DNA from: a virus
Length of the DNA: 64,000 bases
IMG/VR virus record: IMGVR_UViG_3300044568_003751
Span: 25,312 to 89,311 of that record
Strand: one strand, 5' to 3'
Each line of letters starts with the position of its first letter. Position 1 is the first letter of the stretch. The translations under genes and the position numbers were made by a program. Below are positions 30,701-48,424 of this stretch, piece after piece. The notes beneath the pieces are model-generated. The model saw only the letters and a list, made by a program, of their open reading frames with translations. It was not told the DNA's origin and searched no databases.

Positions 30701-30774
30701 TGGTGCTCCCACCGGGTAACGATCCTGGGTTTCTACATTACCAATGTAGTGTAATGCCTTTATACTATAGGAGC
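30701..30774 (-). tRNA. tRNA-Thr(GGU)
   Basis: Acceptor GCTCCTA pairs with TGGGAGC, CCA encoded; anticodon loop TTGGTAA on a CTACA/TGTAG stem. The T-loop is ATCGTTA instead of TTCRANY. Confidence 0.85.
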
Positions 30775-30777
30775 AAC

Positions 30778-30815
30778 TGGAGCGGAATACCAGAATCGAA
30801 CTGGTCACCTAAATC
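30778..30815 (-). pseudogene. tRNA-Gly 3' remnant
   Basis: ACCAG-TTCGATT-CTGGT T-arm, then ATTCCGC-T-CCA, closely like the 3' half of tRNA-Gly(GCC) at 32154. No matching GCGGAAT 5' half exists upstream, so only a 3' piece remains, beside the TauD-like gene. Confidence 0.65.
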
Positions 30816-30854
30816 AAGTAATTTTGTTATGAATTTTTTCCAACAGGAATAGTA

Positions 30855-31706
30855 TTATGTAACTCTTGAAGTGCTTACAAGACAAGTTCGATGCATAACA
30901 CGTGGACAATCATCTGGCGTGCCAGCGGCCAGATGCATCAATGCACGATTATCCCAAAACACAATATCAAACGGTTTCCATTTGTGTCGGTAAACATATC
31001 TGGGGTTGGTAGTGTGCTCAAATAAAAATTGCAGGAGTTCCTGGCCTTCTTTTTCGGGCAACCCGTCGATTCTAGAAGTAAAATGTGGGTTTACCCATAA
31101 AGTTTTGAATCCACCTACTGGATGTTGTTGTACAATAGATTGCAATCTAGGAGGATTCAACTCCCGTTGTTCATCAGAAAGACTTTGTCGCCAAGGATTC
31201 CGAGATTGCAATTCGTCATATTTAAGATAGTACACATGCTCGGCTTGTAGGCATTGCAATTGTTGTTTCATGTCTGCACTGAGATCATCATATGCGGCTT
31301 GTTGATCAGCAAACAGGGTATCACCACCTTGAGAAGGCAATAACTGTGCATGTAAAAATGTTCCATAGCCAGGATACTCTTTCCAACTGCTGTCTGCATG
31401 CCAGTAGAGACCGGCATCACGCATACCCAGTGGCCGGCCATCTTTGACAATATTGGATAATACCAACACTTCGGGTTGACTTGGCAAAGGGAAATCAAGC
31501 ACTGGATGATTGTTAGATGCTAATGTTCCAAAGTTTTTGCAAAAAAAGACAAGTTTATCAGGGGTAATTTGTTGATCCCGGAATATCAACAGATGTTCCT
31601 TGAGATGCGTTGATTTTAAATCAGCAATTGCTTGACTACTTAGCCGCTGAGAACAATCAAGATCTGTAACTTCTGCGCCAAATGTTGCTAGTGCCGTAAT
31701 TTTCAT
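30855..31706 (-). CDS. TauD/TfdA-family 2-oxoglutarate dioxygenase
   Basis: 283 aa. The Fe(II) ligands are the His-Asp of WHADSSW near residue 103 and a distal His in RVMHRTCL near 272; Thr in GGDTLFADQ near 127 and an Arg near the C-terminus bind 2-oxoglutarate. The family hydroxylates small acids such as taurine or modified amino acids. The gene sits alone between tRNA pieces and has no strong promoter that I can see. Confidence 0.9.
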   Translation of the reverse strand: MKITALATFGAEVTDLDCSQRLSSQAIADLKSTHLKEHLLIFRDQQITPDKLVFFCKNFGTLASNNHPVLDFPLPSQPEVLVLSNIVKDGRPLGMRDAGLYWHADSSWKEYPGYGTFLHAQLLPSQGGDTLFADQQAAYDDLSADMKQQLQCLQAEHVYYLKYDELQSRNPWRQSLSDEQRELNPPRLQSIVQQHPVGGFKTLWVNPHFTSRIDGLPEKEGQELLQFLFEHTTNPRYVYRHKWKPFDIVFWDNRALMHLAAGTPDDCPRVMHRTCLVSTSRVT

Positions 31707-31745
31707 GGTGCAATTACTTAGTTGACACCAAAGTTAGTCAGATAA

Positions 31746-32069
31746 TTATTCAGGATTAACTTGGGCACTAATAATCATTGGAGGATATTCGAGTCCTTGA
31801 CCTAAATTTTCTGATAGAACAACATCAACCCAGGCTTGTGCAGTGGCAAGATCGGGCCAAGTACGACTGATATGTCTTGGTGTGCCTTCAGTCACACTTT
31901 CAACTACAGATTCATTTACAAGGTTATCACTTGAACATCCGTGCGTTTTTGTAAATCTTTCTAAAATTGATTCGAAATTCATTTTGTAAGCAGACATTGC
32001 TGTTACAAATTCGCTTTCAGATAAGCGATGATGGGCAAATCCCCCGAAAACTACAGTAGTTGTAGGCAT
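31746..32069 (-). CDS. Hypothetical protein, 107 aa
   Basis: Start at ATG 32069 with GGAG 6 nt upstream. MPTTTVVFGGFAHHRLSESE opens the frame; RTWPDLATAQAWVDVVL near 70-86 looks like an antibiotic-monooxygenase/dabb-type beta-alpha fold. Function unknown. Confidence 0.6.
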   Translation of the reverse strand: MPTTTVVFGGFAHHRLSESEFVTAMSAYKMNFESILERFTKTHGCSSDNLVNESVVESVTEGTPRHISRTWPDLATAQAWVDVVLSENLGQGLEYPPMIISAQVNPE

Positions 32070-32153
32070 ATAAATCTCCAATTCACGTCGAGTATTTATG
32101 CTGGACTTGTCAATAATATTCAAGAGTTATTGTAGTATAAAATTACAAATATT

Positions 32154-32227
32154 TGGAGCGGGATACGAGAATCGAACTCGTCACTAAACCTTGGCAAGAT
32201 TTCGAGATACCACTTCACCAATCCCGC
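32154..32227 (-). tRNA. tRNA-Gly(GCC)
   Basis: Acceptor GCGGGAT/ATCCCGC, T73, CCA encoded; anticodon loop TTGCCAA; T-loop TTCGATT. Confidence 0.93.
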
Positions 32228-32233
32228 ATTTGA

Positions 32234-32289
32234 GAAAAACCCTGTCGTGTGAGCCAACTTCCGGGAGTGGGCAACTCACAGAGGACAGG
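32234..32289 (-). terminator. Long-stem terminator
   Basis: On the minus strand CCCTGTC and TGTGAG pair with CTCACA and GACAGGG across an inner hairpin, followed by TTTTT. Ends the YkuK-like gene. Confidence 0.72.
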
Positions 32290-32308
32290 GCCGTGTTGTT
32301 ATTACTTG

Positions 32309-32782
32309 TTAGGCTGCACGTAGATCTTTGAATCTATCTGCCGCATATGAAGCCGCAAACGCATCGGGTTTGACAAAAGGTATAACATTACACACACCTT
32401 TGATGTAGCCTATGGCCTGTGATATTACACAACTTGATCCGTGTATTTCGTCTGGGTTGATGTCCAAGTGAACTTCAACTTCACGTCCTTCTAGTACTTC
32501 GGCCAGTTTCAAGTACAATTCGCTCACTTTGTACACTTCGGTCATCAACCTTAAACTGGGACGACTGGCTCGTTGATCCCAGTCGCGTTCACGTTGCACT
32601 TCACCAAACAGTTTGCAACCGTTGTTGCCATTGATGTGTACCACAATGGCCAACACATAGTCAGCATGCCAGGCACCGTTGATTTTTACACGCTCTGAAT
32701 CGCAACCAAGATAGATTCGAGTTTCGGGTGTTTGCGCCCGTATAAACTGTGCCACTTGGTCAATGTCTAGTTTTTTCATCAT
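32309..32782 (-). CDS. RNase H-like fold protein (YkuK/DUF458-like)
   Basis: 157 aa; starts MMKKLDIDQV, the first or second Met being equally possible. IYLGCDSERV near 22-31, then YVLAIVVHI, and VHLDINPDEIHGSS near 105-118 place acidic residues as in the DUF458/YkuK RNase H-like family. Role unknown, perhaps nucleic acid handling. Sits at the end of the tRNA array. Confidence 0.72.
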   Translation of the reverse strand: MMKKLDIDQVAQFIRAQTPETRIYLGCDSERVKINGAWHADYVLAIVVHINGNNGCKLFGEVQRERDWDQRASRPSLRLMTEVYKVSELYLKLAEVLEGREVEVHLDINPDEIHGSSCVISQAIGYIKGVCNVIPFVKPDAFAASYAADRFKDLRAA

Positions 32783-32823
32783 CGTCTTTCTATTTAACTC
32801 AAAAACTGTTACAGTTTTATTAA

Positions 32824-32904
32824 TGGTACCCCGGGTGGGAGTTGAACCCACATTTGAATTTCTCCTTTTGAGAGAGATGACTTTGCCAATTTGTCTACCG
32901 GGGC
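32824..32904 (-). tRNA. tRNA-Leu(CAA)
   Basis: Acceptor GCCCCGG/CCGGGGT (G1-U72), anticodon loop CTCAAAA, T-arm GTGGG-TTCAACT-CCCAC, CCA encoded. The variable arm (about 9 nt) is short for tRNA-Leu. Confidence 0.88.
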
Positions 32905-32907
32905 AAT

Positions 32908-32990
32908 TGGTACGAGTAGCCGGACTTGAACCGGCAAGCCTAAGCGGAAGATTTTAAATCTTCTGAGTTTACCAATTTCTCCATACTCGC
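32908..32990 (-). tRNA. tRNA-Leu(UAA)
   Basis: Acceptor GCGAGTA/TACTCGT, anticodon loop TTTAAAA on GAAGA/TCTTC, long variable arm, CCA encoded. Confidence 0.92.
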
Positions 32991-32994
32991 TGAA

Positions 32995-33071
32995 TGGTGC
33001 CCCAAGAGAGACTCGAACTCTCAAAATTTGGCTTCTAAGACCAACACGTATACCAATTCCGTCATCGGGGC
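32995..33071 (-). tRNA. tRNA-Leu(UAG)
   Basis: Acceptor GCCCCGA/TTGGGGC, anticodon loop CTTAGAA on TTGGT/GCCAA, CCA encoded. Confidence 0.9.
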
Positions 33072-33236
33072 AAATAAATATCATTATGATTACAATTGAA
33101 CATGCTATGCAAACGTTATTCCAAATATCTGGTACACAGCCGTATGTGCCAGAAACTCATGCTACCACCACTAGACAATTCACTGTGAATGCCATGCTAG
33201 AGCCGCTGAATCTAAAGTTCAAACTAGATCCCTTGT

Positions 33237-33312
33237 TGGTGCCTCCTCCAGGTTCCGACCCTGGTTCCCCGGATTTTCAATCCGGTGCTATGACCACATC
33301 AGCTAAAGAGGC
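33237..33312 (-). tRNA. tRNA-Phe(GAA)
   Basis: Acceptor GCCTCTT/AGGAGGC, anticodon loop TTGAAAA on CCGGA/TCCGG, T-loop GTCGGAA (T54 replaced by G), CCA encoded. The 165-nt gap before it (33072-33236) shows no supported gene. Confidence 0.9.
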
Positions 33313-33317
33313 GTAAT

Positions 33318-33391
33318 TGGTACCTCGTGACAGAATCGAACTGCCGTAACCGCCGTGTAAAGACGGAGTTCTACCATTAAACTAACGAGGC
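33318..33391 (-). tRNA. tRNA-Val(UAC)
   Basis: Acceptor GCCTCGT/ACGAGGT, anticodon loop TTTACAC on CCGTC/GGCGG, T-loop TTCGATT, CCA encoded. Confidence 0.9.
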
Positions 33392-33396
33392 GTATT

Positions 33397-33488
33397 TGGC
33401 GGAAGACGGAGGAGTCGAACCCCATCCGATTTCTCGGAACCTGGTTTTCAAGGCCAGTCGCGGCACCAACCCCGCTGCATCATCTTCC
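33397..33488 (-). tRNA. tRNA-Ser(UGA)
   Basis: Acceptor GGAAGAT/GTCTTCC, G73, anticodon loop CTTGAAA on CTGGC/ACCAG, long variable arm, CCA encoded. Confidence 0.93.
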
Positions 33489-33497
33489 TTATTGAAT

Positions 33498-33548
33498 TAA
33501 AAAAAGTACTACCCGATGTTTAAGGGTATAGAACATCCTTTCGGGTAG
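33498..33548 (-). terminator. Terminator of the 33.5-kb non-coding RNA
   Basis: CTACCCG...ATGTT/AACAT...CGGGTAG extended stem, then TACTTTTTTT on the minus strand, just before tRNA-Ser(UGA). Confidence 0.75.
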
Positions 33549-33675
33549 CCCTTGTCCCTCCAGCAACATAAAACGACTGTGACTAGCAGTCTACCGCGGC
33601 TTTCGCCCGTTCAGCGGCGCTGGATCTAATAAGGTCCCTGGTAGTTGGGCCCATAGTCAATGAGTTTTTAACACA
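33498..33675 (-). ncRNA. Candidate structured RNA between tRNA-Cys and tRNA-Ser
   Basis: About 180 nt without a gene. On the minus strand CCAGC/GCTGG closes a region containing GGC-GAAA-GCC (GNRA tetraloop) and GACTG-CTAGTCA-CAGTC, and the segment ends in the terminator above. Several nested helices and no reading frame point to a stable RNA. Class not recognised. Confidence 0.5.
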
Positions 33676-33688
33676 CTTTTTCTAAACT

Positions 33689-33766
33689 TGGAGTAGCGGG
33701 TGAGATTCGAACTCACGGCTTTACGGATTTGCAATCCGTTCCCTTGGACCACTCGGGCACCGCTAC
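33689..33766 (-). tRNA. tRNA-Cys(GCA)
   Basis: Acceptor GTAGCGG/CCGCTAC, anticodon loop TTGCAAA on ACGGA/TCCGT, T-loop TTCGAAT, CCA encoded. Confidence 0.93.
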
Positions 33767-33772
33767 ATAAAT

Positions 33773-33925
33773 TTAACTTGGCACAATATGAGGAATGTAA
33801 GGAACGGCTCGAGGTCCGCCGTACATCTGCTCAAACAACTTCTTGGCTTCCTGCGGTGTGCCCGCATAGATACGCTTTTTTTCTTCGCCCTGTGGTGTGC
33901 GAACTGTTGTTTCATACATTGGCAT
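33773..33925 (-). CDS. Small phage protein, 50 aa
   Basis: ATG 33925 with AGGAG 8 nt upstream; MPMYETTVRTPQGEEKKRIY, then TPQEAKKLFEQMYGG. The pattern of a beta strand and helix recurs in small proteins of T4-like phages as I recall. Lies between tRNA-Cys and tRNA-Pro. Function unknown. Confidence 0.68.
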   Translation of the reverse strand: MPMYETTVRTPQGEEKKRIYAGTPQEAKKLFEQMYGGPRAVPYIPHIVPS

Positions 33926-33939
33926 ATTATTCTCCTAAT

Positions 33940-34016
33940 TGGTCCGAGTAGTAGGATTCAAACCTACGACCCTCTGGTCCCAAACCAGATGCGCTATCAG
34001 GCTGCGCTATACTCGG
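33940..34016 (-). tRNA. tRNA-Pro(UGG)
   Basis: Acceptor CCGAGTA/TACTCGG, anticodon loop TTTGGGA on TCTGG/CCAGA, T-loop TTTGAAT, CCA encoded. Confidence 0.93.
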
Positions 34017-34022
34017 GTAATT

Positions 34023-34250
34023 TTATTTCTTGGCCGACAACGGCTCTTGTGACTTTTCTATCTCTGATGTCTCGGCAAATCCTGCATTGCCACCAAAACC
34101 TTTCCAGCTGTCTTCTGTAAAAATTCTAACAGGTCGCCAGAAGCGGGCAATGATGTTGTTGATCACCACAATTCCAATTGCCACAGCAATAAAGCCTAAT
34201 GCTGTCAAAACACTACCGGCTAAAAATACCGCCGCTTGATCCATGTCCAT
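34023..34250 (-). CDS. Membrane protein, 75 aa
   Basis: One long hydrophobic helix (VFLAGSVLTALGFIAVAIGI) then FWRPVRIFTEDSWKGFGG and a polar tail. Between tRNA-Pro and tRNA-Gly(UCC). The C-terminal SWKGFGG block seems familiar from T4-like phages. Function unknown. Confidence 0.68.
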   Translation of the reverse strand: MDMDQAAVFLAGSVLTALGFIAVAIGIVVINNIIARFWRPVRIFTEDSWKGFGGNAGFAETSEIEKSQEPLSAKK

Positions 34251-34267
34251 AAGTTTTTCCTTAATTT

Positions 34268-34341
34268 TGGAGCGGGATGAGAGAATCGAACTCTCAACTC
34301 TAACTTGGAAGGATAGCGTTTTGCCACTAAACTAATCCCGC
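34268..34341 (-). tRNA. tRNA-Gly(UCC)
   Basis: Acceptor GCGGGAT/ATCCCGC, anticodon loop CTTCCAA; one T-T mismatch in the anticodon stem; T-loop TTCGATT, CCA encoded. Confidence 0.9.
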
Positions 34342-34387
34342 GTTGAACATGTAGTATACAATATTTTTTGGATATTGTAAAGACATT

Positions 34388-34461
34388 TGGTTCCCTGTCG
34401 AGGTAACGATCCTCGGTCTCTCGATTATCAGTCGAGTGCTCTACCTTTGAGCTAACGGGGA
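34388..34461 (-). tRNA. tRNA-Ile(GAU)
   Basis: Anticodon loop CTGATAA on CTCGA/TCGAG; T-arm CGAGG-ATCGTTA-CCTCG with the altered T-loop; acceptor TCCCCGT/ACAGGGA has one C-A mismatch; CCA encoded. Confidence 0.88.
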
Positions 34462-34467
34462 AAATAC

Positions 34468-34541
34468 TGGCACGGGAACTAGGGCTCGAACCTAGAATGA
34501 CAGAGTCAAAGTCTGTAGTGTTACCATTACACTATTCCCGA
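34468..34541 (-). tRNA. tRNA-Gln(UUG)
   Basis: Anticodon loop CTTTGAC on ACAGA/TCTGT; G73, CCA encoded; acceptor TCGGGAA/TTCCCGT leaves an open U1-U72 pair, matching the weak first pair that GlnRS prefers. Confidence 0.9.
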
Positions 34542-34553
34542 ACAAAAACTTTA

Positions 34554-34628
34554 TGGTGGATGAGAGTAGAGTCGAACTACCACTTGACTCCGTATGAAGG
34601 AGGCGCACTACCATTATGCTACTCATCC
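34554..34628 (-). tRNA. tRNA-Met(CAU), elongator-like
   Basis: Acceptor GGATGAG/CTCATCC, anticodon loop TTCATAC, T-loop TTCGACT, CCA encoded. Fully paired acceptor, so not an initiator. Confidence 0.8.
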
Positions 34629-34630
34629 AT

Positions 34631-34707
34631 TGGGGTGCATGATGGGATTCGAACCCACGCATATCGGAATCACAATCCGAGGTCTTGACCGCTTGACGAC
34701 ACGCACC
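34631..34707 (-). tRNA. tRNA-His(GUG)
   Basis: Encoded G-1 opposite C73, acceptor GTGCGTG/CATGCAC, anticodon loop TTGTGAT on TCGGA/TCCGA, CCA encoded. Confidence 0.93.
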
Positions 34708-34741
34708 ATATAGAAACACACCAAGCAAATATGTTTTCATA

Positions 34742-34816
34742 TGGTAGGGGCACAGAGAATCGAACTCTGATTTACGGGTTAAAAGCCCGCTACTTTGGCC
34801 GTTAAGTTATACCCCC
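34742..34816 (-). tRNA. tRNA-Lys(UUU)
   Basis: Acceptor GGGGGTA/TGCCCCT, anticodon loop CTTTTAA on GCGGG/CCCGT, T-loop TTCGATT, CCA encoded. Confidence 0.92.
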
Positions 34817-34867
34817 ACTAATCTTATCACTCTTGTCACAGTCTATGGGACTCTCCTTTTAAAATAT

Positions 34868-34943
34868 TTGGTACCGCTGGAAGGAATCAAACCTCCATCC
34901 CCACGTTCGTAGCATGGTGTCCTGTTCATTGAACGACAGCGAT
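34868..34943 (-). tRNA. tRNA-Arg(ACG)
   Basis: Acceptor ATCGCTG/CAGCGGT, anticodon loop CTACGAA on CCATG/CGTGG, T-loop TTTGATT, CCA encoded. Would need A34-to-I editing by TadA. Confidence 0.9.
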
Positions 34944-34948
34944 ATGAT

Positions 34949-35022
34949 TGGTGCCCCATGAGAGAATCGAACTCCCGTACCCGGATTACAAAACCGGTGT
35001 AATGCCATTATACTAATAGGGC
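34949..35022 (-). tRNA. tRNA-Thr(UGU)
   Basis: Acceptor GCCCTAT/ATGGGGC, anticodon loop TTTGTAA, T-loop TTCGATT, CCA encoded; one mismatch at the base of the anticodon stem. Confidence 0.9.
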
Positions 35023-35028
35023 AAATTT

Positions 35029-35116
35029 TGGCGGAGTATGTAGGAATCGAACCTACTCGCCCATTTCTGAACGACAGTTTAGCAAACTGTTGCCTTAACC
35101 GGTCGGCCAATACTCC
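35029..35116 (-). tRNA. tRNA-Ser(GCU)
   Basis: Acceptor GGAGTAT/ATACTCC, G73, anticodon loop TTGCTAA on ACAGT/ACTGT, long variable arm, CCA encoded. Confidence 0.93.
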
Positions 35117-35124
35117 ATACTTAC

Positions 35125-35203
35125 TGGCTCCGCATTTCGGAATCGGACCGAACTAACCAGGGATTAACAGTCCCGCCCATGCACCTTGCTCGGGTTCTGC
35201 GGA
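35125..35203 (-). tRNA. tRNA-Asn(GUU)
   Basis: Anticodon loop CTGTTAA, G73, CCA encoded, acceptor TCCGCAG/ATGCGGA with a G-A mismatch at 7:66; T-loop TCCGATT (C55). Confidence 0.88.
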
Positions 35204-35244
35204 ATAAAACTACTTAGCAGGCACTCATGCCTGCCTTAAAAACA

Positions 35245-35330
35245 TGGTGGAGAGTCAGGGATTCGAACCCCGTATACCGTAAGGTGGAAGATTTACAGTC
35301 TCCTGAAGTCACCAATGCTTCTCACTCTCC
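35245..35330 (-). tRNA. tRNA-Tyr(GUA)
   Basis: Acceptor GGAGAGT/ACTCTCC, anticodon loop CTGTAAA, long variable arm, T-loop TTCGAAT, CCA encoded. Confidence 0.93.
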
Positions 35331-35334
35331 AATT

Positions 35335-35409
35335 TGGTGGACCGTCCCGGGTTCGAACCGGGGACTGAGGCTTGCAAAGCCACTGTGTTCCCAACTATAC
35401 CAACAGCCC
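35335..35409 (-). tRNA. tRNA-Ala(UGC)
   Basis: Acceptor GGGCTGT/ACGGTCC with the G3-U70 alanine identity pair, anticodon loop TTTGCAA, T-loop TTCGAAC, CCA encoded. Confidence 0.92.
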
Positions 35410-35415
35410 ATAATT

Positions 35416-35489
35416 TGGCGACTCGTGATGGAATCGAACCACCGCTAGAAGTTTTGGAGACTTCCGCACTGCCACTATACTAACGAGCC
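35416..35489 (-). tRNA. tRNA-Trp(CCA)
   Basis: Acceptor GGCTCGT/ACGAGTC, G73, anticodon loop CTCCAAA on GAAGT/ACTTC, T-loop TTCGATT, CCA encoded. Confidence 0.92.
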
Positions 35490-35649
35490 ACGTCACACTG
35501 TTGCCAATGTGTGTATCAAAACACACTCTAAGAATATGCTTTGATACGCTCGGATTTTTTTTGTGTACAAGAACACAAGCCATCCCCGAGGCCGCCCATT
35601 TGCAGTTTTGAGTGTTGCAGGCTCGCGTTGCCATTGCACTTGATAACGC
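35490..35649 (-). ncRNA. Possible structured RNA upstream of tRNA-Trp
   Basis: 160 nt without a convincing gene. On the minus strand GTATCAAA and TTTGATAC form an 8-bp stem around about 19 nt. GATAACG/CGTTATC, at the end of the micro-ORF above, forms another. Could be an RNA or an mRNA 3' region. Confidence 0.35.
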
Positions 35650-35697
35650 TTATTGCACGTTATCGTGAATCCACTTCCAGTACTCTTCTGTTGTCAT
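35650..35697 (-). CDS. Micro-ORF, 15 aa
   Basis: ATG with AAGGAG 7 nt upstream, encoding MTTEEYWKWIHDNVQ. Its stop lies in a perfect GATAACG-CGTTATC hairpin, and the ribosome site begins right after the T run of a terminator. Possibly a leader peptide or translated only on read-through. Confidence 0.4.
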   Translation of the reverse strand: MTTEEYWKWIHDNVQ

Positions 35698-35710
35698 CGC
35701 TGTTCTCCTT

Positions 35711-35744
35711 AAAAAGAAAAACCCTGGAGTTTTTAGTTCCAGGG
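35711..35744 (-). terminator. Rho-independent terminator
   Basis: CCCTGGA-ACTAAAAAC-TCCAGGG then TTTTTCTTTTT on the minus strand; ends the 37-codon leaderless unit. Confidence 0.85.
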
Positions 35745-35774
35745 TCCTTGGCTTAGATACGATTGTATACTACG

Positions 35775-35888
35775 TTAAGACCCTGTGTCTCCTAGAATGA
35801 TTGCTGTTGGGCGACCATAGGCATGTGACCAGGCTGGTGCCTGATTAAACATTGTCTTGGTTAGCAGTGAACAGATTTGTGTTTTCAT
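35775..35888 (-). CDS. Leaderless micro-ORF, 37 aa
   Basis: ATG 7 nt after a consensus TATAAT; encodes MKTQICSLLTKTMFNQAPAW... and stops 31 nt before a strong terminator. The self-contained promoter-ORF-terminator unit of about 190 bp could make a peptide or a small RNA. Confidence 0.5.
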   Translation of the reverse strand: MKTQICSLLTKTMFNQAPAWSHAYGRPTAIILGDTGS

Positions 35889-35895
35889 AGTATCA

Positions 35896-35924
35896 ATTAT
35901 AGTTTATTTACCTTTGTGTGTCAA
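35896..35924 (-). promoter_or_regulatory. Sigma70-type promoter, leaderless output
   Basis: TTGACA, 17 nt, TATAAT; the ATG of the 37-aa ORF is 7 nt downstream. Confidence 0.8.
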
Positions 35925-35965
35925 TCACTTTGGCAAACTTTTTTGTTGTATTTACGCAACAGATT

Positions 35966-37096
35966 TTATTCACCTATACAGAAGGGTTTGCTGTAGATTG
36001 GTGCACCAACATCTTTTCCAATTATGCTGTTAACGGGATTGGTACTGTTTTCTATCAAATGATTACAAAAGTTTTTTTCTAACAAAAGATTTTTTATGCC
36101 TTTTACAAAAAGATCGGCCACAACATTGTCCTTCTTTAGCAAGGCATCTAGGCCAGTATCAAATGTTCGGGAAAGATCACCGTCAATGGTGTCCATTGTT
36201 ATTACTACTGATTCAAATTTATTTTCTTGTATTTTTTGTGTGAAACTGCCACCTGATACTATCTCTTTTTGTCTAGACAAATTTTTTGCCCAAGAAATAT
36301 AAGCGGCATTAGAAGAAATTCTAAATTTTGCGCCAGTAGGATCTAGACTAGCATTGTATGCATTTGCATTCATACGAAGTTTAAGCATTTTTTTAATCAT
36401 ATGACTTTGTTTGAGTGCCAAGACTGGGGCAGTAAAAAAACATTCAATATTCTCAAAATTCATTGTACTCAGCAAGGTTCTTGCATCATGACATGAATAA
36501 TATTTGTTATCTTTCTTGAATACTCTAGGTTGCTCGTGTCCAGTAATCAAACACCAAGTTGATCCACCAAACTGGTCGGCACAGTAATCCCACATGACAG
36601 AGTCCATGGTTCCCATGGCAAATTTAGGAATCATAGAAATATTTTTAAAAATCCAATCTTCTCCGGTTACAATTTGTTGTTTAGCCGCAGGATCAAATCG
36701 TTCTTTGACAGTGATTTTGGTCAAGGGATCATGATGATTATTTTTCAGCCAATCCACATACTGTGAATTGTACCAGGGCTCGTACTGATCATTTACCCAG
36801 ATAACAATTTCATCAATATGCAAATTATTACGTTTGAACACTTCGTAGATGGTCTGACTGTCAGTGCCACCGCTCCAGGACAGCATAACGTGTTGATATT
36901 TGTTTCTTAAATTACATGCATGGCGATCCATCAGTTGATCAAGAGACTCGGTGGGTTCTTGCAACCAATTCAGTTGATCATTCTGTTGATCATGACAAAC
37001 AAACTCAATGGGTTTCTTGCTTACAAATGCCTCATATTTGGCAAGCAGGTGATTGAAAATTATTTTATTGTTGACACGAAAGTAGATGGAAGTCAT
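35966..37096 (-). CDS. PP-loop ATPase, SGGTDS type, copy 1
   Basis: 376 aa. LSWSGGTDSQTIYEVFKRNN near 73-92 is the ATP-binding loop with an extended, conserved follow-up. YVDWLKNNHHDP, ITGHEQPRV and a C-terminal SKPFCIGE are shared with the paralogue at 43574 (SKEYCIGT). The family adenylates an acyl or carbonyl group. No glutaminase. Substrate unknown. Confidence 0.8.
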   Translation of the reverse strand: MTSIYFRVNNKIIFNHLLAKYEAFVSKKPIEFVCHDQQNDQLNWLQEPTESLDQLMDRHACNLRNKYQHVMLSWSGGTDSQTIYEVFKRNNLHIDEIVIWVNDQYEPWYNSQYVDWLKNNHHDPLTKITVKERFDPAAKQQIVTGEDWIFKNISMIPKFAMGTMDSVMWDYCADQFGGSTWCLITGHEQPRVFKKDNKYYSCHDARTLLSTMNFENIECFFTAPVLALKQSHMIKKMLKLRMNANAYNASLDPTGAKFRISSNAAYISWAKNLSRQKEIVSGGSFTQKIQENKFESVVITMDTIDGDLSRTFDTGLDALLKKDNVVADLFVKGIKNLLLEKNFCNHLIENSTNPVNSIIGKDVGAPIYSKPFCIGE

Positions 37097-37106
37097 GTGT
37101 ATGATT

Positions 37107-37179
37107 GGATGCGGGGGACAGATTCGAACTGCCGATGCACCTGGCTTATGAGACCGGTGTGGTGACCGCCCTCCCCGCT
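37107..37179 (-). tRNA. tRNA-Met(CAU), initiator-like
   Basis: Anticodon loop CTCATAA, T-loop TTCGAAT, acceptor AGCGGGG against CCCCGCA leaves an A1-A72 mismatch as initiators do. The anticodon stem has one C-A mismatch and the D-arm is unusual, so the initiator label is tentative. Confidence 0.72.
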
Positions 37180-37211
37180 GTGTATTTAATGCTCTGCGTC
37201 CCCCGGCGGTA

Positions 37212-37241
37212 ATTATAGTGTATCAGAAATTTGGTCAGCAA
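37212..37241 (-). promoter_or_regulatory. Promoter before initiator-like tRNA
   Basis: TATAAT with a TTGCTG -35 at 18 nt (or CTGACC at 15 nt); 32 nt before the tRNA. Confidence 0.5.
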
Positions 37242-37244
37242 GCG

Positions 37245-37509
37245 ATTAACTCACCAATTAGTCTATTCATCACTTACACCCTCCACCCGCTTCCCGACAG
37301 GGACCGTTCTCGTATTGCTAACGCCGGTTAGGTTGGACCGCTGATTGCTCAGTGAAACTTTTCCGTTTCAGAACCACCCGTAGTTGTCACACTACTTCTC
37401 ATCGTCGGGGTCAGACTATCCAGTGACGCTGGAACGTTTGGGAGAGGCCACGGTTGCAGGATCTAGTGCCTTTTGCAAGGGAAGTATCCAGGCGGTGCGG
37501 CCTCAAACT
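37245..37509 (-). ncRNA. Candidate large structured RNA
   Basis: 265 nt with no supported gene. On the minus strand: GTTTG-AGGCC pairs with GGCCT...CAAAC around an inner CCTT-GCAA-AAGG hairpin. Then follow TCCAG-CGTCA-CTGGA, GTAGT/ACTAC, GAAAC/GTTTC, CTGA-GCAA-TCAG and CTAAC-CGGC-GTTAG. Two of the loops are GNRA (GCAA). The dense helices suggest an ornate RNA such as those found near phage tRNAs. Confidence 0.6.
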
Positions 37510-37585
37510 TGGCGGTCTTAGGGGGTAACGATCCCCACTCTTACGGCGTGACAAGCCGTCGTGCGTCCATGAACACTTTAAGACC
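37510..37585 (-). tRNA. tRNA-Asp(GUC)
   Basis: Acceptor GGTCTTA/TAAGACC, G73, anticodon loop TTGTCAC on ACGGC/GCCGT; altered T-loop ATCGTTA; CCA encoded. Embedded between structured RNA segments. Confidence 0.88.
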
Positions 37586-37586
37586 A

Positions 37587-37741
37587 AATTTTTATAGTCA
37601 AGCACCGAGAATGCCAATTTAGGAGTCCTGCGCTAACAGTTCCAAAGCCGATGCAGTTATATTAGGATCAGTCGCCGGCCGCTGTGACCCGAATAGTGTT
37701 GGCGTCCCAACACGATACCTTATCGATGCTTGACTATAAAA
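37587..37741 (-). ncRNA. Structured RNA closed by a 19-bp terminal stem
   Basis: Ends TTTTTATAGTCAAGCA.CG and its reverse complement pair with one mismatch, enclosing about 115 nt. Inside: GATA-AGG-TATC, GTGTTGG-GACG-CCAACAC, GGGTCA/TGATCC and CTGC/GCAG. It fills the space between tRNA-Glu and tRNA-Asp exactly. Class unknown. Confidence 0.6.
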
Positions 37742-37745
37742 ACAA

Positions 37746-37821
37746 TGGTGCTCCGTGGGGGAATCGAACCCCTCCTTACCCGCGTGAAAGGCGAGTGTCC
37801 TAACCGATAGACGAACGGAGC
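37746..37821 (-). tRNA. tRNA-Glu(UUC)
   Basis: Acceptor GCTCCGT/ACGGAGC, anticodon loop CTTTCAC on CTCGC/GCGGG, T-loop TTCGATT, CCA encoded. Confidence 0.93.
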
Positions 37822-38165: not shown

Positions 38166-38333
38166 TTACAGGCAAAGTCCCCAATGGCAATCCCACTCAT
38201 GTTCTGAGCGAAGGGTTGTGATGATTGCAGTTGTTTGGTTCATAAGTGTATTATATATGACAAGTGATTGAAAGTCAAGGCTTTTTGGCTCGATTGCAAG
38301 CAGGATCTCAACAAACTGTGTTACTTTGCTCAT
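38166..38333 (-). CDS. Small protein, 55 aa (or 25 aa from internal leaderless start)
   Basis: The frame starts at an ATG overlapping the stop of the binding-protein gene (ATGA) and runs 55 codons, ending HEWDCHWGLCL. A consensus promoter lies inside it, and an in-frame ATG at 38243 is 6 nt after that TATAAT, giving a 25-aa leaderless product (MNQTTAIITTLRSEHEW...). A terminator follows 23 nt after the stop. Function unknown; His/Cys/Trp-rich end may bind metal. Confidence 0.45.
   Translation of the reverse strand: MSKVTQFVEILLAIEPKSLDFQSLVIYNTLMNQTTAIITTLRSEHEWDCHWGLCL
38250..38278 (-). promoter_or_regulatory. Sigma70-type promoter inside small ORF
   Basis: TTGACT, 17 nt, TATAAT; the upstream flank resembles the flank of the promoter at 39952-39980. 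Confidence 0.75.
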
Positions 38334-39223
38334 TTCTTAGTCAATAGTTTTACTGCCTGTTGATACTCACGCTCAATATCACGTGCAAACTCATCGGGTG
38401 TTTGTTTTCGGGGAACTCCAGCATGTACCACAGTAACAATTTGTTTTTGCACTTCTTCGTTGGCTCTAGCACTTTCTAGCACATTGTACAAGCGATCACG
38501 TGTGTCTTTGGGGGTGCCCGGTGGCGCCCAGAACCCAGTCCAGCCTTCTTGGCTGATATTGTACCCAAGTTCCACAAGACTTTTTATACCATTACGTCCC
38601 TTTGGGGTTAGTACTGCCAGGCCGTTTAGTTCTCCAGTGGCAACTCGATCCTCCAACAAGAAAGTAACAGTGGTAACTTCGATACTCTTGTTCATCAATG
38701 CCAACATGGCCGCATTGTCACCGTTGTAGTTCACCATGATGAGATTGGGATTGTTGCCCAACAATTCTTCAAGTGCAATTCTGGTAATAGCGCCATTGTT
38801 GCCCACGGCTACTGTGCGTGTTTTCAATGCAGACTTCAGTTGCTCAACTGTGCGGATGTCGGAGTCTTTGCGACTGATCAGCATCTGACCGTTTGTGGCA
38901 CCACGCATGAGTGGCACAATCTTTGTCATGATTTCGTGGGCCGCGGGGTTACTGGCAGAATTGTAAACCACTGCACTGCTACCGGTATACATCACAGTGT
39001 TGCCGTCGGGCTTGGCTGCCATCAACTCCTGCATGCCAACTAGGCCTTCGGCGCCAGGTTTGTTGACCACTATGGCCTCAACGCCCTGGCGTGCCAATTC
39101 CTTGGCATACACACGTGCCGCAAGGTCAGTGTTGCCTCCGGCCGCATAGGTAACAATAATTTTCAATGGTTCTGCCGCATGAGCAGAAGCCACAAGTAAT
39201 AGTGAGAGTAAAAGTTTTTTCAT
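38330..39223 (-). CDS. TctC/Bug-family periplasmic binding protein, copy 1
   Basis: 297 aa with a signal peptide (MKKLLLSLLLVASAHAAEPL, cut after AHA). KIIVTYAAGGNTDLAARVYA near 20-39 and NKPGAEG near 54-60 are typical Bug-family motifs. These proteins capture carboxylates for tripartite tricarboxylate transporters, abundant in Burkholderiales. No membrane components are encoded in the window. Start overlaps the oxygenase stop (ATGA). Confidence 0.9.
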   Translation of the reverse strand: MKKLLLSLLLVASAHAAEPLKIIVTYAAGGNTDLAARVYAKELARQGVEAIVVNKPGAEGLVGMQELMAAKPDGNTVMYTGSSAVVYNSASNPAAHEIMTKIVPLMRGATNGQMLISRKDSDIRTVEQLKSALKTRTVAVGNNGAITRIALEELLGNNPNLIMVNYNGDNAAMLALMNKSIEVTTVTFLLEDRVATGELNGLAVLTPKGRNGIKSLVELGYNISQEGWTGFWAPPGTPKDTRDRLYNVLESARANEEVQKQIVTVVHAGVPRKQTPDEFARDIEREYQQAVKLLTKK

Positions 39224-39918
39224 AGTTGATCGTAATCCAATTTAAAAGGTACGCTAGATTCAGCAAGTGCTGTGAAACGATCTGTGACCAGGCCACTCAA
39301 TCGCAACAGAGCCCTGTGCCAATATCCAGCGTTAAAAGTGCTATGAGCACCTGTGGGCCAATCCCAATGCACAACATCTCCTGCTTGCCAGTGAGTGTAA
39401 ATTTCGTCTCCAAAAATAATACCTTGTCCCCAGCGCCAGTCAGTGAGCAATATTAACACACGACTGGCAGTGCGTCTATCATTTTGAAAAGCCGCAATTT
39501 CTTCGTCACTGAATTGAATCTTGTGTATACTGGATTCTTCAGGCGTGATATAACCGTATCCAAGTTCGTCGATGTGCAATGGTTGCAATGCACCTGGCGC
39601 AAGTGTTTGTACTCGACCACTGGGCTTGCGATAGCCAATCAAATGACCAATACGTTCTACCACGGTGGTATCGGTAACCAACCATCTATCAAAGTCTTTT
39701 GGGTCTGCGGACTCGCCAACAATGGTGCTGATATCAGTGTCTTTGTAGCCCAGTTCTTGGGTCAACTGTTCTGCCACTGCCAGCCGGCTGATGTGTTTTG
39801 CTTCCTGCAAACTGGGAATACTTTGTGCAATAGTCTGTCCGTGACTTAGAAATTTATTCCAACTTTGATGTGGAGGGATATTACGGATGTTGCCTATATA
39901 TTTATAATGTTTTGTCAT
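39220..39918 (-). CDS. Aspartyl/asparaginyl hydroxylase-like oxygenase
   Basis: 232 aa from ATG 39918 (MTKHYKYIGNI). LHIDELGYGY near 113-122 and GDVVHWDWPTGAHSTFN near 183-199 with a final Arg fit the HxD/H...R pattern of 2-oxoglutarate/Fe hydroxylases of the Asp/Asn beta-hydroxylase type. Substrate unknown. Expressed from its own promoter with the binding-protein gene. Confidence 0.72.
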   Translation of the reverse strand: MTKHYKYIGNIRNIPPHQSWNKFLSHGQTIAQSIPSLQEAKHISRLAVAEQLTQELGYKDTDISTIVGESADPKDFDRWLVTDTTVVERIGHLIGYRKPSGRVQTLAPGALQPLHIDELGYGYITPEESSIHKIQFSDEEIAAFQNDRRTASRVLILLTDWRWGQGIIFGDEIYTHWQAGDVVHWDWPTGAHSTFNAGYWHRALLRLSGLVTDRFTALAESSVPFKLDYDQL

Positions 39919-41161: not shown

Positions 41162-41169
41162 TATTTATA
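41162..41169 (-). promoter_or_regulatory. T4-type late promoter
   Basis: TATAAATA, then a TTGCTC-G-GAGCAA inverted repeat and ATG 27 nt downstream, as expected of sigma gp55-type late promoters. Confidence 0.5.
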
Positions 41170-41183
41170 TTGGCAATTTTTGT

Positions 41184-41210
41184 TTATAAAAATAGGCTCC
41201 GGGGAGCCTA
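41184..41210 (-). terminator. Terminator after tmRNA
   Basis: TAGGCTCC-CC-GGAGCCTA then TTTTTAT on the minus strand. Confidence 0.8.
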
Positions 41211-41501
41211 CCTGGTGATTTCTGTTACGAGGTATTTCCTACCCTAGGCTACAATCAAGCGGCCAATGCGAACTGTGAGTCGTTTGCGTTTACTTTTGTT
41301 TAGTTTTTACGACTATCGCTGTCGTGCTGTCCACTCTGTTACTCTTTGCCCTGTCGAAACTATGCAGGCCCGGCATAAAAACACAATACCAAAGTAAATT
41401 TACACGGAATACCAAAGTAAATTTATTATGCTTTTATGGTGGACCTGGGGGGATTCGCACCCCCGTCCAGAACACTTTTCTCTCGGCTTCATACAGCAAT
41501 A
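41190..41501 (-). ncRNA. ssrA: Circularly permuted (two-piece) tmRNA
   Basis: The acceptor piece comes first: TGTTCTG, then GGGGG-TGCGAAT-CCCCC and CAGGTCC-A-CCA ending at 41437. A 65-nt spacer (41372-41436) follows. The coding piece starts GGGCCTG at 41371 and continues with TTTCGACAGGGC. GGGCCTG pairs with CAGGTCC, including the G3-U70 alanine signal, and CAGGGCA pairs with TGTTCTG. The tag ORF (41287-41255) reads ANDSQFALAA and stop. It has its own promoter and terminator. It would rescue stalled ribosomes and tag peptides. Confidence 0.92.
41385..41425. repeat. Direct repeat in the tmRNA spacer
   Basis: AATACCAAAGTAAATTTA occurs twice exactly, 23 nt apart (41385-41402 and 41408-41425), inside the segment removed from the mature tmRNA. 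Confidence 0.9.
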
Positions 41502-41507
41502 ACTTAC

Positions 41508-41536
41508 ATTATACATTTGTATAACGCTGTTGTCTA
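41508..41536 (-). promoter_or_regulatory. Sigma70-type promoter of tmRNA
   Basis: TAGACA, 17 nt, TATAAT with TG extended -10; predicted start near 41501. Confidence 0.75.
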
Positions 41537-44690: not shown

Positions 44691-45575
44691 TTATTTTTTT
44701 AGTTGATCTCTGTAGTATTCAGTTTCTTTGACGGCCCTGGCATTCAAGTCATTGTCTGCTTTGACCACTACAAAACTTCTTTCTGTAAGAGGTTTGGTCA
44801 GTTCTGCATCCTGGCTCCATGTTTTGATAATGCTGATCAATTCTGCATTCTTTAACAAATTGCTGTGGTTGGGAATTGCTGTGGCATACCAAGTTTCAAA
44901 TTGATATTTTGGTAATACAGTGTTCATTGCAGGAATGTCACTGCGCACAACTTTGCTAGATGCAAGAAATTTAACCTTGCCTTCCAATCCAGTATAAGCC
45001 GCAATCTGGTCGTAACCACAAGCAGTATGCCCGCCCACAATGTCTGGAATCATCTGACCTGTTCCTTTGTAGGGCACGGGTACAAATTTAGTACCGTAAG
45101 TGGAATTGATTTGTTTGAGTTCAATCTCACCATGGCTGTTGCTGACACCACACACAGTTTCTTTTTTCTTGGCTGTTTCGATCAATTCTCTAAATGTTTT
45201 GATTTCACCAGTTTCGGGAGTGATAAAAATCATGGGGTTGGACACAGATGGTCCTATCAGTTGTGTTTTTTTGGCATAGACATTTTCTCTATTGAGCAAT
45301 ACATTGGAAAATACAAAATTTGCAGAACTTGCCACAAATATAACATTGTCTCGTTTTTCCACTGCAATGTTTAGAGCAATGTCTCCGTTGGCTCCAGGGT
45401 GATACACAACCACGTTATCATGTCCTTTGTTTATCAATGCTTTTGATAAACTACGGGCGGTCATATCAATTGCACCACCTGGAGGTGTTGGTACAACAAT
45501 AGTGATTGGTTCTCCGGCAAACACAGTGGTCGAGAATACTAAGGCAAAAATAAATTGTGTAAATTTTTTGATCAT
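44691..45575 (-). CDS. TctC/Bug-family periplasmic binding protein, copy 2
   Basis: 294 aa from ATG 45575 with AGGAG upstream; signal peptide MIKKFTQFIFALVFSTTVFA. ITIVVPTPPGGAIDMTARSL and YHPGANGDIALN are Bug motifs. The two copies differ widely. Own promoter with SD-containing leader. No permease gene in the window. Confidence 0.88.
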   Translation of the reverse strand: MIKKFTQFIFALVFSTTVFAGEPITIVVPTPPGGAIDMTARSLSKALINKGHDNVVVYHPGANGDIALNIAVEKRDNVIFVASSANFVFSNVLLNRENVYAKKTQLIGPSVSNPMIFITPETGEIKTFRELIETAKKKETVCGVSNSHGEIELKQINSTYGTKFVPVPYKGTGQMIPDIVGGHTACGYDQIAAYTGLEGKVKFLASSKVVRSDIPAMNTVLPKYQFETWYATAIPNHSNLLKNAELISIIKTWSQDAELTKPLTERSFVVVKADNDLNARAVKETEYYRDQLKK

Positions 45576-45593
45576 GGGTTCTCCTAAAAGTTT

Positions 45594-45622
45594 ATTATAC
45601 ACGATTGCTAGTAGGAGGTCTA
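45594..45622 (-). promoter_or_regulatory. Sigma70-type promoter
   Basis: TAGACC, 17 nt, TATAAT with TG extended -10. The 100 nt further upstream (45623-45726) hold no gene. Confidence 0.72.
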
Positions 45623-45726
45623 CATACGGTGCGGCGTTCTGAGCATAGTATGTCAGTAAAAGGGTCACTACCCCGGGCGTCACTTGTGATACCGACGTCA
45701 GCCTGTTGCTGGCGTTACAGAAATAT

Positions 45727-46749: not shown

Positions 46750-47748
46750 TTAATGTAGTCGTTGTTTAACAATCTGTTTGACAATCTCTTTATCTTCCCA
46801 GTATTTCTGGGATTTGACCCAACTTAATCGTGCTTTGTGTCTGAGTTTTTCTGTGTCTTCGGCAGACATTTCTGTAATAGTGATGCCATTTGCTTTGGCT
46901 TCTGTTTCAAATTTTTCAGCATCCTCTAAGGACCACTGGCGTTCTTGTCTAGATGCATCAAGAGCGGCTTTACGGAATGCTTCTTGATATACCGGAGTTA
47001 AACTGTCCCAGAATTTATTGCTGACTAAAATAGTGGTCAAGAACATGCTGTGATTTGTTTTAAAAACGTAGTTGCCATTGACTTGTTTAAAACGCAGATA
47101 AGTTGTTTCTACACCATCACATCCGTGTTGCATTGGATCTTTTTTATGCCATGTTGTAGGAGCAGATATTTCGTATGATCCTCCCATGTCCTCGAGGGTT
47201 GTTCCTAAAGACGTTGATTGTTGTACAGCAATTTTCATTGTTGATAGTTGATCAAGAGTTGTAATAGGCTCATGTGATCCAACTACTCGATAACCGCCAC
47301 TGTAAGTAAATGCCAATCCAGTAACGCCGCTTTTACGTGCTAATTCTGAACATAATTTTTGTCCTACTGGACCTTCAACCACACGCTGGACATGGTCATG
47401 ATCTTCAAACAAAAATGGCAAATCTAATGCTCTAAAATCATGATGATGATCACCTACTCGGAATATTTGAATCTGACTCATTTCAACTTCACTGTCAAAC
47501 AATGCACCCCAAAACGCTTTCATGCCAACTTCTTCAAAAGTTACATCGTTATCTGGTGAATGTTTCATTTCCTCAAGACCGGGTATTTCGTGATATTTTT
47601 CTACATAATCATCATACGTAAGCATTTCAATTTCAAACTCATCATTTGAATATTTTTTTAATGCGTCTGAAAAAGCACGAGCAGTACGAAAAAATAATTC
47701 TTGTGGTTGATGTGCAATAAGCCATCTAATTTTGCGGGGTGTTGACAT
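46750..47748 (-). CDS. TRAP-type DctP-like binding protein without signal peptide
   Basis: 332 aa. ALDLPFLFEDHDHVQRVVEG near 107-126, GYRVVGSHEPITTLDQLSTM near 152-171 and TNHSMFLTTILVSNKFWDSL near 232-251 follow DctP/SBP family 7. The protein starts MSTPRKIRWLIAHQPQEL, with no export signal, so it would stay in the cytoplasm unless the true start differs. GGAG ribosome site supports this start. Confidence 0.8.
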   Translation of the reverse strand: MSTPRKIRWLIAHQPQELFFRTARAFSDALKKYSNDEFEIEMLTYDDYVEKYHEIPGLEEMKHSPDNDVTFEEVGMKAFWGALFDSEVEMSQIQIFRVGDHHHDFRALDLPFLFEDHDHVQRVVEGPVGQKLCSELARKSGVTGLAFTYSGGYRVVGSHEPITTLDQLSTMKIAVQQSTSLGTTLEDMGGSYEISAPTTWHKKDPMQHGCDGVETTYLRFKQVNGNYVFKTNHSMFLTTILVSNKFWDSLTPVYQEAFRKAALDASRQERQWSLEDAEKFETEAKANGITITEMSAEDTEKLRHKARLSWVKSQKYWEDKEIVKQIVKQRLH

Positions 47749-48270: not shown

Positions 48271-48345
48271 TGGTCCGGCGTAGTGGAATCGAACCACTAT
48301 TATCTCTTTAGAAGAAAGATGTCCTATCCGTTGAACGAACGCCAG
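48271..48345 (-). tRNA. tRNA-Arg(UCU)
   Basis: Acceptor CTGGCGT/ACGCCGG, anticodon loop CTTCTAA on TCTTT/AGAGA, T-loop TTCGATT, CCA encoded. Confidence 0.92.
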
Positions 48346-48349
48346 CGAA

Positions 48350-48424
48350 TGGTGCCTTGGGAGGGAATTGAACCCCCACTCAAGCGATTATGAGTCGCCT
48401 GCTTTACCATTAAGCTACCAAGGC
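48350..48424 (-). tRNA. tRNA-Ile2(CAU, lysidine type)
   Basis: Acceptor GCCTTGG/CCAAGGC, anticodon arm GGCGA-CTCATAA-TCGCT as in tRNA-Ile2, so C34 is probably modified by host TilS to read AUA. CCA encoded. Confidence 0.82.

Follow-up and report, generated by a model that had tools for sequence, protein, structure and literature searches.

The window analysed here, a 64,000-nucleotide stretch comprising bases 25312-89311 of an 89,311-base IMG/VR virus record, contains on its minus strand, at 41529..41187, a circularly permuted tmRNA gene. ARAGORN reports a permuted tmRNA at 41164-41529 (-) with the tag ANDSQFALAA, and two Rfam covariance models match over their full length, namely, beta_tmRNA (RF01850; 138.9 bits against a cut-off of 84, E 2.4e-42, model positions 1-331 of 331) and tmRNA_permuted (RF04321; 121.2 bits, cut-off 47). 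An earlier note, made from the letters of the window alone, had proposed a virus-borne permuted tmRNA with this tag and a covariance-model search as the check, and the proposal is thereby borne out. The structural hallmarks of the RF01850 family are present as well, in that the acceptor half lies upstream of the tag half, the 7-bp acceptor stem includes the G3-U70 pair, and the tag has a hydrophobic, alanine-rich end.

In the direction of transcription, the minus-strand locus begins with a candidate sigma-70-type promoter (41508..41536), recognised by consensus match only, in which TAGACA (41536-41531) and TATAAT (41513-41508) are separated by 17 nt and agree with the consensus at 11 of 12 positions. 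The acceptor half (41437..41503), which would be transcribed first, consists of the helix-2 strand TGTTCTG, the T-arm, the acceptor 3' strand CAGGTCC, an A, and the CCA that ends at 41437. The noncoding intervening spacer of 65 nt (41372..41436) is predicted to extend the acceptor stem by 15 bp and carries in its loop (41385..41423) two direct copies of a 16-nt repeat, AATTTACTTTGGTATT, at 41408-41423 and 41385-41400. The tag-coding half (41187..41371) starts, at the putative RNase P site, with GGGCCTG (first base 41371), which forms all seven pairs, G3-U70 included, with CAGGTCC of the acceptor half; CAGGGCA similarly pairs with TGTTCTG. The tag frame with its stop codon occupies 41255..41287, and a terminator-like hairpin, GGCTCCCCGGAGCC, followed by TATTTTT, is found at 41188..41208, inside the RF01850 match, though absent from the output of a simple terminator scan. 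The promoter, both pairings, the spacer, the terminator and the positions of the CCA end and of the start of the tag half had all been described in the earlier note and agree with our reading, to which the strand and the direct repeat are additions. The possibility that the spacer repeat is a phage-wide promoter was considered and rejected: elsewhere in the window there is one copy, with three mismatches, which is the chance level. When the window tmRNA was searched directly by blastn in a set of 50,697 phage records, no match was obtained.

Two-piece tmRNAs have been published for about 50 phages, mostly from aquatic habitats, besides the methylophage Melnitz (PMC9004378), and tmRNA accompanied by SmpB for huge phages (PMC7162821), so the window copy is of an already known type. 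It shares with the permuted tmRNA of Betaproteobacteria (RF01850, RF04321) the gene order, the tRNA-like domain, G3-U70, the spacer stem, the tag frame and the full-length match, and differs in being viral, in having a tag unmatched in bacteria by pattern and a 65-nt spacer with a direct repeat, and in that relatives of the window phage bear open reading frames (ORFs) in their spacers. The huge phages resemble the window phage in being large and in their wealth of tRNAs and translation genes, but they possess SmpB, which was not found in it; the available text of that report does not discuss the form of the tmRNA gene or its spacers (PMC7162821). Another comparable case is the tmRNA with a group I intron and a homing endonuclease gene (PMC11915505), where a protein gene likewise resides inside a tmRNA gene and is absent from the mature RNA. 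That arrangement involves a self-splicing intron in the T-loop, in contrast to the naturally excised spacer with unrelated small cargo genes described below; in the window, the T-arm is uninterrupted and the Rfam matches include no group I intron.

The window contains 26 tRNA genes (30701-37821 and 48271-48424) that cover all amino acids except Asn; the record's first 25 kb has none. Near the record's start, upstream of the window, a reading frame stays open for 4,257 codons (L082, 63-12836). The MoxR-like ATPase of the record is 51.6% identical to its counterpart in jumbo phage PA5oct, and among its close relatives, which are large viral contigs, several measure 330-364 kb and have a terminase match. 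Of 33 related large virus records, 23 have a permuted tmRNA above the cut-off and nine have no match, so the gene is a stable feature of this phage group. SmpB was not found in the window's phage record or in 21 others by a search that was positive in 10 of 14 control genomes; as many virus records are fragments, this negative does not prove absence. Because SmpB was not found in these 22 phage records, the phage tmRNA probably works with the SmpB of the host.

As to the identity of that host, the earlier note had expected the tmRNA type to disclose the lineage. The type is indeed betaproteobacterial, but the identification is weak, and a host assignment on this basis is unsafe because in relatives the same tag half is joined to alpha-like tRNA halves and because the tag, which the note had suggested comparing with tags of freshwater Burkholderiales, was found by pattern in none of 84,980 bacterial and archaeal species. 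A near relative (L094, G003), for instance, keeps the ANDSQFALAA tag half but has an alpha-like tRNA half, a D-loop and a 23-nt spacer, an apparent modular replacement when its sequence is set against window positions 41187-41503. Pfam matches in the window include transporter substrate-binding proteins, two TctC and one DctP, and a TauD dioxygenase (38330-39223, 44691-45683, 46750-47748 and 30855-31706). TctC-type proteins are abundant in Burkholderiales, possibly a hint of the host.

Several observations on other phage tmRNAs were made in passing. Very long tag frames (23-31 residues, e.g. ANADTFDFSAMSFTGNTVRGAANESRFALAA) and the odd ends SLAV, LVAANA and LMAA occur among them (L064, L075, L103, L104, L126, L128, L131, L142, L161, L225). 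In another contig, a GOLLD RNA (193 bits) that encloses a tRNA (L335, 3212-3676) lies within a tRNA cluster beside a permuted tmRNA. Acinetobacter phage BUCT628 carries an unannotated permuted tmRNA with the tag ANDNVFGAKTLAA (L476, MZ593728, about 39425-39760).

Four scans of viral contigs yielded 254 tmRNA copies with 173 distinct spacers. All seven acceptor pairs and G3-U70 are present in each of the 172 distinct copies (79 of them ORF-bearing), part of both strands being fixed by the search pattern. The first 11 bases of the spacer pair in register with bases -5 to -15 (140 distinct end combinations); pairing holds in 87.7% of cells over 12 positions, compared with 42-59% in slid registers, and many changes are two-sided. 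The mosaic composition of the phage tmRNAs, with their alpha-like and beta-like halves, and the nine related records without a match could suggest a passenger, that is, a host-captured ssrA that is non-functional in the phage and decaying; against the perfect acceptor stems, the covarying spacer stem, the tag frames that are open in most copies and the promoter retained in the window, such a reading is very improbable. Another reading is tag reprogramming, whereby the phage tag would replace that of the host and alter the fate of the tagged proteins; re-tagging, like phage control of ribosome rescue, had been raised in the earlier note. The failure to match ANDSQFALAA in bacteria and archaea by the pattern used and the unusual tags of some relatives (LMAA, LVAANA or a length of 28-31 residues) point in this direction, but the window tag and most of the relatives' tags end in ALAA, the usual protease signal, so we consider this explanation unlikely.

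The spacers of the relatives range from 23 to 491 nt, the upper end being reached in freshwater phages and a single value of 1,085 nt being an extraction artefact, and many of the longer ones are occupied almost end to end by an ORF. With a filling ORF defined as one that starts behind a Shine-Dalgarno sequence in the first 27 nt and stops in the last 16 nt of the spacer, such ORFs occupy 56 of the 73 distinct spacers that measure 120-600 nt (17/21 at 120-170 nt, 26/31 at 170-240 nt and 13/21 at 240-600 nt), compared with about 0.6 expected from shuffles of the spacer interior (0.38, 0.15 and 0.02, respectively), and there were almost none in spacers below 80 nt. The sample is biased in that one pattern scan picked out purine-rich 5' arms; in the set free of this bias, 30 of 111 distinct spacers contain a filling ORF of at least 25 aa, and when records were sampled by the ATPase gene only, such an ORF is present in 10 of the 24 that bear a tmRNA. 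At 12 loci picked for seemingly ORF-less spacers, the only Rfam family found at the places of the tmRNAs was tmRNA itself. The 65-nt spacer of the window contains no filling ORF with a Shine-Dalgarno sequence, and the case for gene cargo accordingly rests on the relatives.

The spacer ORFs show the marks of coding selection. Across the 14 ORF families with at least two homologs, pN/pS is 0.26 overall, and the ORF frame has the lowest pN/pS of the three frames in the families tested. Single-linkage clustering places 87 ORFs in 44 families, many of which are membrane peptides of 20-26 residues, and Pfam recognises a thioredoxin with WCGPC (L161, 4e-21), DUF2061 (L162, 4e-21) and a GNAT acetyltransferase (L192, 2e-6). 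In the thioredoxin-bearing locus, the acceptor half is followed by CCATAAGGAAGTTTAATG, an 84-codon thioredoxin ending in GTTTCTTTATGAT, GGGCCTG and the tag half, with every part intact. A freshwater-phage family with 109-nt spacers (L184, L193, L205, L215, L228 and relatives) was rejected as a noncoding control when it turned out to be coding in another frame: this frame encodes an Oxidored-like domain (Pfam 1.7e-10) with a pN/pS of 0.25 versus 1.31 and 0.95 in the other frames, overlaps both flanking tRNA-like halves, and has its sole in-frame ATG inside the tRNA-like domain. For a 122-aa cargo protein, a homolog search of the phage collection found nothing, and the AlphaFold model of a 123-aa cargo family (mean pLDDT 63) was too poor for use. 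Judged by frame comparison, pN/pS and domain matches, the spacer ORFs of the relatives are real genes.

An isolated phage offers a parallel. The Melnitz tmRNA (MZ577097, 45984-46436) has a 142-nt spacer with TTGGAGAAGTATATG and then MFKWLSKTRLVVITRDYF...SVYD, a conserved ORF behind a strong Shine-Dalgarno sequence that carries no annotation in the record and whose frame has no stop ahead of the tag half. In related marine contigs, this ORF is conserved with in-frame indels and a pN/pS of 0.35, against 1.24 and 0.44 in the other frames; in a sister lineage, a TAA stop lies 7 nt before the tag half, and among other marine contigs one has an unrelated spacer ORF (L496) and two have none. Melnitz resembles the window phage in its virus-borne permuted tmRNA and differs in the alpha-like type of this RNA and in its tag, ANDNYVPVDYALAA. 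The available text of the published account deals with a glutamine riboswitch and makes no mention of the spacer ORF (PMC9004378).

Both ends of the spacer that frame these genes seem to have counterparts where no gene is present. In the unbiased sample, the 5' arm of the spacer stem reads as a Shine-Dalgarno sequence in 25 of 30 ORF-bearing and 28 of 81 ORF-less spacers, and in ORF-bearing copies the Shine-Dalgarno sequence is predicted to be paired (mean 0.96), which could limit translation. The stop is the TGA of a TGAT just before the tag half, one base from the cut, in 57 of 79 ORFs; other ORFs have it 9-14 nt earlier. Since TGAT also terminates ORF-less spacers and some bacterial spacers, both spacer ends seem to be older elements that translation has co-opted. 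Bacterial genomes, in which 17 of 300 Burkholderiales and 158 of 398 Pseudomonadota scored above the model cut-off, have short spacers, 22-53 nt in nearly all bacteria examined (mostly 20-50 nt among the best matches and ten of the longest, and at most 53 nt in 40 Rhodocyclaceae-type loci), with a few longer, structured ones of 70, 85 and, as the longest, 126 nt. No filling ORF was seen in these spacers, as extracted from the best matches and ten of the longest by a pattern that covered part of the genomes and missed or misplaced some loci.

Judging from where the stop lies, expression of the ORF could plausibly be linked with RNase P cleavage or with the rescue load. In the fuller form of this idea, the spacer RNA or its ORF would report tmRNA processing or the load of trans-translation, for instance, when a stop one base from the cut turns the mini-mRNA into a tmRNA substrate. 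The 57 ORFs that stop there, the Melnitz-type frame without a stop before the cut and the Shine-Dalgarno sequence within the processing stem are compatible with such reporting, but TGAT, given its occurrence at the ends of ORF-less and bacterial spacers, may be just a convenient stop, other ORFs terminate farther upstream, and the window copy has no ORF, so we view this proposal as possible but doubtful.

It is highly probable, in our assessment, that the window carries a working betaproteobacterial-type phage ssrA gene and that the spacer, in this phage group, is also an insertion slot for small genes. Under this preferred reading, a single transcript would fold and be cut by host RNase P before 41371 and by 3' processing behind the CCA end (41437). 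The 65-nt spacer would be discarded, and the two RNAs would pair into tmRNA. Host AlaRS would charge it via G3-U70, host SmpB would bring it to stalled ribosomes, and ANDSQFALAA would be added, so that ribosome cycling could be sustained while mRNAs break during infection, alongside the 26 phage tRNAs. The slot would be closed by the conserved stem, its purine-rich 5' arm being usable as a Shine-Dalgarno sequence and its 3' TGAT providing a stop, so that unrelated small genes could be repeatedly housed in the pre-tmRNA with the tmRNA unharmed. Where the spacer of a relative bears an ORF, either the precursor or the spacer once released would serve as a mini-mRNA, and thus a strong stable-RNA promoter would also express a small phage protein. 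Conceivably, the excised spacer has evolved into a gene slot with expression tied to tmRNA maturation: given the Shine-Dalgarno sequence in the processing stem and a frame that stops, or stays open, at the RNase P cut, the released mini-mRNA might itself be a trans-translation substrate, with the cargo rising only when rescue capacity is exhausted. This extension is a speculative one that we hold to be rather improbable.

What looks new is the small, selectively maintained protein gene in the tmRNA spacer of many related phages; the literature searched, subscription journals lying outside its reach, yielded no description of protein genes housed in the spacers of permuted tmRNAs. Such proteins appear to have been overlooked because gene callers tend to pass over ORFs under an annotated tmRNA, and dozens of small phage proteins are here brought to light. 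The tmRNA gains a role beyond that of a noncoding rescue RNA, in that its transcript can also hold protein genes, in a stretch long deemed waste, and it becomes a natural test case for RNase P processing and translation sharing one RNA. Since Melnitz has been isolated and its Methylophilales host, H5P1, is cultured, the gene slot is directly testable.
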